Below the pieces are notes generated by a model that was not told where the DNA came from, did not search any database, and saw only the letters and a list, made by a program, of their open reading frames with translations. The translations under genes and the position numbers were made by a program. Positions 20,583 to 21,542 of a stretch of 41,147 bases of DNA are shown piece after piece (positions within the stretch are counted from its first letter, which is position 1; each line of letters opens with the position of its first letter). Source of the DNA: Sphingomonadales bacterium (GTDB lineage: Bacteria > Pseudomonadota > Alphaproteobacteria > Sphingomonadales > Sphingomonadaceae); contig JAIXYC010000130.1 in the NCBI GenBank assembly GCA_027490455.1, positions 1-41,147 of the forward strand. Reading direction: 5' to 3'.

Positions 20583-21542
20583 ATGCATGGCTGGATCATC
20601 CTTGATAAACCGCTTGGGCTGGGTTCAACGCAGGCCGTTGCAGCCGTAAAGCGCAACTTGCGCTCTGCCGGCTTTGGCAAGGTCAAGGTTGGGCACGGCG
20701 GTACGCTTGATCCGCTTGCCACCGGTGTTCTCCCCATCGCATTGGGTGAAGCGACCAAATTATGTGGCCGGATGCTCGACGCGTCCAAGACTTATGACTT
20801 TACCATATGCTTTGGGACAGAGACCAGCGGCCTAGATGCCGAGGGCGAGGTTGTTGCAACGTCTGACGTGCGGCCCACGCTGGAACAGGTGCAGCAAGCC
20901 CTGGCGCAGTTCACAGGGCCAATTGAACAGATTCCGCCGGCTTATTCCGCGATCAAAATCGATGGCAAGCGCGCGTATGATTTGGCGCGGGCAGGGGAAG
21001 TGGTCGAGATGAAGTCGCGGGGCGTGACGGTCTATCAACTCACCATCTGTCATGCTGAACCTGTTTCAGCATCATACTTTGACCGGGATGAAAGTAAGAC
21101 CCTGAAACAAGTTCAGGGTGACGCGCTTTTGGGTTCGGTCACACTGACAGCCGACGTTTCCAAAGGCACGTACATCCGCAGCTTGGCGCGAGATATCGCA
21201 TATGCTTTGGGTACCGTCGGCCATGTCTCTATGCTGCGCCGCGTGCGCGCAGGTCCGTTCGCCCTGAATGGCGCGATTTCGCTGGACAAACTCAATGCAT
21301 TCGGCCAAGGGGCAGCCCAAGAAGACATTATCTTGCCGATAGAGGCAGGGCTGGTCGACATCCCGGCTCTTGATCTCTCCCCGGAACAGGCAAGGGCGAT
21401 CCAACAGGGTCGCGTCTTGACCGGGATTGCCATGAAAGATGGGCTACATTGGGCGAGGGACGCAGATTTGCGGCCTATTGCACTGGTGGAGAACATCGGC
21501 GGTGCTTTAAAAACCGTCCGTGGCTTTAACCTAACTCCATGA
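20583..21542 (+). CDS. truB: tRNA pseudouridine(55) synthase TruB, carrying an in-frame repeat insertion
   Basis: 319 aa; [58 protein letters not shown]; extra segment [25 protein letters not shown]. Confidence 0.95.
21048..21122. repeat. 75-nt imperfect palindromic repeat element inside truB
   Basis: Left arm GTCATGCTGAACCTGTTTCAG (21049-21069) against reverse complement of right arm GTCACCCTGAACTTGTTTCAG (21102-21122): 18/21 identical; 25 codons, in frame (offset 465 from truB start). Confidence 0.8.

Follow-up and report, generated by a model that had tools for sequence, protein, structure and literature searches.

In-frame palindromic repeats of several families occupy one loop of TruB in sphingomonads

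Comparison of truB genes indicates that the loop of one beta-hairpin in the tRNA pseudouridine-55 synthase TruB is a recurrent landing site for at least eight families of repeat in sphingomonads, a pattern that is apparently undescribed. The translation of selfish palindromes into protein has been proposed as one way in which new peptide sequence arises. The instance from which the analysis began lies in the window (the whole 41,147-nt stretch of DNA analysed), whose host, judged by its named relatives, is in or near Sphingorhabdus. The features of the gene and its insert are as follows.

20583..21542, + strand: truB, tRNA pseudouridine-55 synthase, 319 aa, frame intact (ORF, Pfam and fold match)
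21018..21062, + strand: upstream beta strand of the hairpin, residues 146-160 (AlphaFold2 model)
21048..21122, + strand: insert of 25 codons (residues 156-180), fitting a head-head heterodimer of CGTC REPs
21048..21072, + strand: left REP unit, with TGTC (a decayed CGTC tag), stem ATGCTGAA/TTCAGCAT and loop CCTGT
21073..21098, no strand: 26-nt spacer with nearly complementary ends (CATACTT/AAGTAAG)
21099..21123, - strand: right REP unit, with CGTC tag (21120-21123), stem ACCCTGAA/TTCAGGGT and loop CTTGT
21126..21158, + strand: downstream beta strand, residues 182-192, running into SKGTYIRSL (AlphaFold2 model)

The 319-aa product was assigned to TruB by Pfam matches to TruB_N (2.5e-48), TruB_C_2 and TruB_C, and it carries the motif with the catalytic Asp as well as the N- and C-terminal domains. 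Between the VTVYQLTI strand and the conserved SKGTYIRSL motif, the 75 nt form exactly 25 in-frame codons and leave the ORF intact, as the preliminary description had read them. The imperfect palindrome that it had reported was also confirmed: the left arm GTCATGCTGAACCTGTTTCAG and the reverse complement of the right arm GTCACCCTGAACTTGTTTCAG are identical at 18 of 21 positions, and RNA folding of 21040-21130 added to this (-34.7 kcal/mol, where shuffled sequences averaged -19.0; z = -4.9; 0/200 shuffles as low). The E. coli loop, given there as short, has about 8 residues opposite 31 in the window protein (1k8w alignment, query 156 to 188). The same insert was present in four further assemblies of close relatives (L081-L084; TruB 97-98% identical), which excludes an assembly artefact of this metagenome-assembled genome.

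In an AlphaFold2 model of the window TruB, whose fold matches the E. coli TruB-RNA complex 1k8w, the insert is predicted as low-confidence coil between two confident strands (pLDDT <50 at residues 164-173, 89 overall, and high over most of the remainder). The model thereby supports the earlier proposal of a surface-loop extension, which according to that description might lie near the RNA-binding face. Variable codons among five carriers were 2 synonymous and 4 non-synonymous within the insert compared with 70 and 16 in the rest of the gene; given this difference (Fisher p = 0.019), constraint on the insert codons looks relaxed, on the strength of six variable codons.

By its sequence the insert fits closely a published class, the CGTC-tagged REPs defined by Di Nocera, De Gregorio and Rocco 2013 (PMC3733652), as a head-head dimer. 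These REPs were described there as having an unpaired CGTC (or TGTC/CCTC) at one end, a stem of 8-9 bp whose first residues are a complementary A-T, a loop of 4-5 nt and a 3-nt unpaired tail that in most, though not all, matches CCA; they are alphaproteobacterial, occur chiefly as head-head (HH) dimers, sometimes carry TGTC, and have no dedicated transposase (PMC3733652). We compiled 39 REP units around 23 places in the window's own genome. The tag was CGTC in 38 of them and TGTC in one, the truB unit. All had 8-bp stems and 5-nt loops, with 309/312 stem positions Watson-Crick paired, a figure to be read with the fact that the search pattern itself demanded parts of the stem. The first stem base was A and the second T in some units and C in others, and the inner tails were mostly CTT. 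All 13 dimers listed from this genome had their tags outside, with spacers of 10-41 nt (mostly 25-29 nt), and in many genomic copies the spacer ends were CTTACTT/AAGTAAG. Rfam search of the window returned zero matches.

The element is a dispersed repeat, as had been proposed. The own genome (a 1.8-Mb assembly in 166 contigs, 85.6% complete) gave 48 matches to a 77-nt query, equivalent to roughly 25-30 distinct places, of which over 20 are additional to truB and about a dozen hold complete dimers; many places matched on both strands because the element is palindromic. Dispersed copies of the window type were found in 40/41 genomes of the genus. Several own-genome ORFs that span other copies matched nothing in Pfam and are probably not real genes. 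Mobilisation by an IS200/RAYT route was considered and found unsupported: a search for Y1_Tnp (RAYT type) gave none in the own genome (85.6% complete) nor in 38/41 genomes of the genus. The Y1_Tnp genes of the genus sample were confined to three genomes, G023 (L161, L164), G026 (L163) and G029 (L162).

The same loop was then compared across 80 named sphingomonad genomes, retrieved by similarity to the window TruB and partly by a pattern from the insert itself. Its length ranged from 10 to 55 residues, always in multiples of three nt and stop-free. One of eight repeat families occupied the loop in 53/80 genomes, all in frame and some as remnants, a proportion that is not an unbiased frequency because of the way in which the genomes were chosen; the other 27/80 had no recognisable insert. 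Families were called by diagnostic peptide motif, followed by correction by eye for L053, L115, L125, L139 and L141, because single-linkage clustering of loop DNA, which was tried and rejected, merged A with B (both CGTC-like) and D with E. The loop peptides of the eight families, and of a ninth found in the genus search, are as follows.

Family A (window type): HAELVSAS..LKQVQGD
Family B: GLDPAS..DQVRGD
Family C: PELVEG..STSSGQA
Family D: ..GPPPRAGE
Family E: PLPFRGGVGVG..PSPEGEG
Family F: SRFRGND-like
Family G: GEGRDP
Family H: PSPDG
Family I (ninth): LERSRE (L063, from the genus search)

In the genomes tested, families A to E proved to be dispersed repeats of high abundance, and several of the others recurred in DNA flanking other truB loci. 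The family E repeat (~130 nt) is unlike a CGTC REP in appearance, so that the common factor is the target and not the element. Most long loops were strongly palindromic at the DNA level (z-scores up to 25); short loops were not. In three genomes (L064, L065 and L066, from G011, G035 and G023), TruB reaches up to 456 aa and the loop stacks several palindrome peptides with tandem RHPEATH/RHPEATT, apparently through successive insertions plus expansion in one loop.

The loop is variable at this position in all sphingomonad TruBs, which would be expected if it had been inherited vertically and had merely diverged, its palindromes being coincidental or convergent. We consider this highly improbable: in the five tested families the DNA of the loop is closely similar to dispersed repeats, copies elsewhere in the genomes that already contradict simple divergence; the palindrome z-scores speak against coincidence; and unrelated families occupy the loop in sister species on strongly supported branches (L137/L140 and L152/L159). 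The preliminary description had itself named two observations that would speak against an inserted repeat, a homologous non-palindromic loop in all relatives, distant ones included, and a lack of further copies in the host genome. Neither was found, the host copies being those counted above and the loop being short (10-16 residues) in 60/63 TruBs from other alphaproteobacterial groups plus one member of the window family; the three exceptions had loops of 23, 24 and 46 residues, the last belonging to the window's own family.

Turnover was evaluated by parsimony. On a 95-row tree (TruB core, RpsO and Pnp), 38 family changes were required, where the minimum was 9, and 36 on a tree of RpsO and Pnp alone; the trees were built quickly from neighbouring genes, and recombination of truB alleles would register on them as change too, so that 38 is not a number of transpositions and independent gains may be inflated. 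Strongly supported branches forced at least 10 changes for family D and at least 8 for family B, and sister species often carry unrelated families, the two pairs named above being examples. The insertion given in the preliminary description is real but not a singular event, the same loop having been colonised repeatedly by unrelated repeat families across the sphingomonads.

Decayed and empty states were observed as well. In L085, 36 nt had been deleted in frame from the middle of a window-type insert; L089, L090 and L094 retained just its two ends; and relatives that lack an insert had loops of 13-14 residues. Neither a clean target-site duplication nor an exact empty site could be read from the comparison, since divergence of the loop among relatives is too rapid. 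That many families arrived at one place, at points only a few codons apart, could be taken to mean that DNA structure or a target sequence here draws several unrelated palindromic elements. Such a mutational preference seems unlikely to us, as the empty loops are non-palindromic and have little sequence in common, the insertion points vary by several codons among families, and a single target rule for unrelated elements is itself unlikely.

Strong palindromes (score of 26 or more) were counted across the truB loci. All 34 in truB were inside the loop; the coding sequences of infB, rbfA, tdk, rpsO and pnp (294 kb) contained none, and the other DNA, 169 kb in which intergenic and unassigned coding sequence are mixed, contained 21. 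Density per kb was 0.448 in truB against 0.124 in the remaining DNA of the same loci. A second gene of the own genome, encoding CysS (507 aa; L002:435-1955, G000 C28), carries the same REP family in frame in a linker, and the element was also found there in at least 11 congeners (L168-L175, L178, L179, L181), as two spacer types at roughly one site. The CysS linkers of 29 other sphingomonad genomes had no clear palindrome, so that CysS, considered as a second hotspot, is instead a one-family site of the genus. Separately, long ORFs in two genomes (L176, 663 aa; L180, 545 aa) contain an in-frame REP of family A, similarly placed in both; by appearance their products may be AMP-forming ligases.

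These densities bear on whether the insert is selected, that is, whether the peptide or a hairpin in truB mRNA is useful (through TruB binding, slower translation or protection of the truB-rpsO-pnp transcript) and the loop is refilled for that reason. The refilling by at least eight families whose common feature is palindromicity of the DNA, the excess in truB over the remaining DNA of the same loci, and a CysS linker that shows no such turnover would all agree with selection. Against it, 27/80 sphingomonads lack a recognisable insert, in-frame deletion removes the hairpins, the insert codons appear relaxed and the peptides have no common sequence; we therefore regard selection of the insert as doubtful. 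A related possibility, that the loop is a true hotspot favouring palindromes of any family, with a benefit from the hairpin or from loop length and the sequence free to vary, is also given a small, though not negligible, chance.

The reading that we consider very probable is that of a tolerated insertion. A non-autonomous CGTC-tagged REP dimer would have entered truB in an ancestor that the host shares with at least four sequenced close relatives; the length and phase of the 75-nt segment would have left the frame open, so that the hairpin is translated into 25 additional residues; and these, placed at the tip of a beta-hairpin, would make up a disordered loop without disturbing the TruB fold, which would be why the insertion was tolerated and not purged. 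More generally, insertion may occur everywhere, with selective removal where frame or fold breaks and survival in the disordered tip, such that the resident palindromic repeat of each sphingomonad repeatedly enters this loop while old inserts shrink by in-frame deletion. The insertion, its reading frame, the dispersal of the repeat, the turnover and the remnants are observed directly in the genomes, as is the predicted disorder in the model; what we infer from them is that the route was transposition, that the peptide is neutral and that enzyme activity is unchanged. Tolerance alone does not fully explain the excess of palindrome density in truB over the same loci, nor does it explain the single family in the CysS linker, although that linker tolerates the element.

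A single loop of a housekeeping enzyme thus preserves, among close relatives, a history of dozens of replacements of one repeat family by an unrelated one, and the coexistence of fresh, decayed and empty states provides a natural series for asking about the neutrality of inserts, their rate of gain and loss, and whether TruB is special at all. For annotation, HAELVSAS..LKQVQGD, GLDPAS..DQVRGD and similar loop peptides should be read as translated repeats and not as conserved domains.

REPs within truB were reported previously in Sphingopyxis alaskensis, Erythrobacter litoralis and Stenotrophomonas maltophilia, and within tRNA synthetase genes of S. alaskensis and E. litoralis (PMC3733652), so that the window case is a further instance and not the first. 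That paper names the three truB cases without a turnover of many families at one loop, and a description of such turnover was not found in the open-access full-text literature. The element itself agrees with the CGTC REPs (PMC3733652) in its tag, A-first 8-bp stem, 5-nt loop, HH heterodimer structure, spacer with complementary ends, alphaproteobacterial host, occasional intragenic copies and, from the Y1_Tnp search, lack of a dedicated transposase; it differs from their consensus in its inner tail (mostly CTT here, CCA there), and the host genus is new. With GTAG REPs it shares short tagged hairpins in inverted pairs that are mainly intergenic, but unlike the RAYT-mobilised (TnpA-REP) GTAG REPs its tag is CGTC and a RAYT gene was not found. 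The host protein shares its fold and active-site motifs with E. coli TruB (1k8w). RPE-4 and RPE-6 of Rickettsia have been assigned to the CGTC-REP superfamily, and an insertion of RPE-1 in truB of Rickettsia conorii is cited in the same work (PMC3733652); RPE-1 is described as a longer palindromic insertion outside the set equated with CGTC REPs, and its likeness to the present case lies in the mode of insertion. The comparison with Rickettsia drawn in the preliminary description is therefore apt, and its in-frame entry of a dispersed palindrome into truB is supported. Most copies here lie outside recognised genes, which sets them apart from the Rickettsia palindromic elements; in both, a palindromic repeat is translated in frame inside housekeeping genes.
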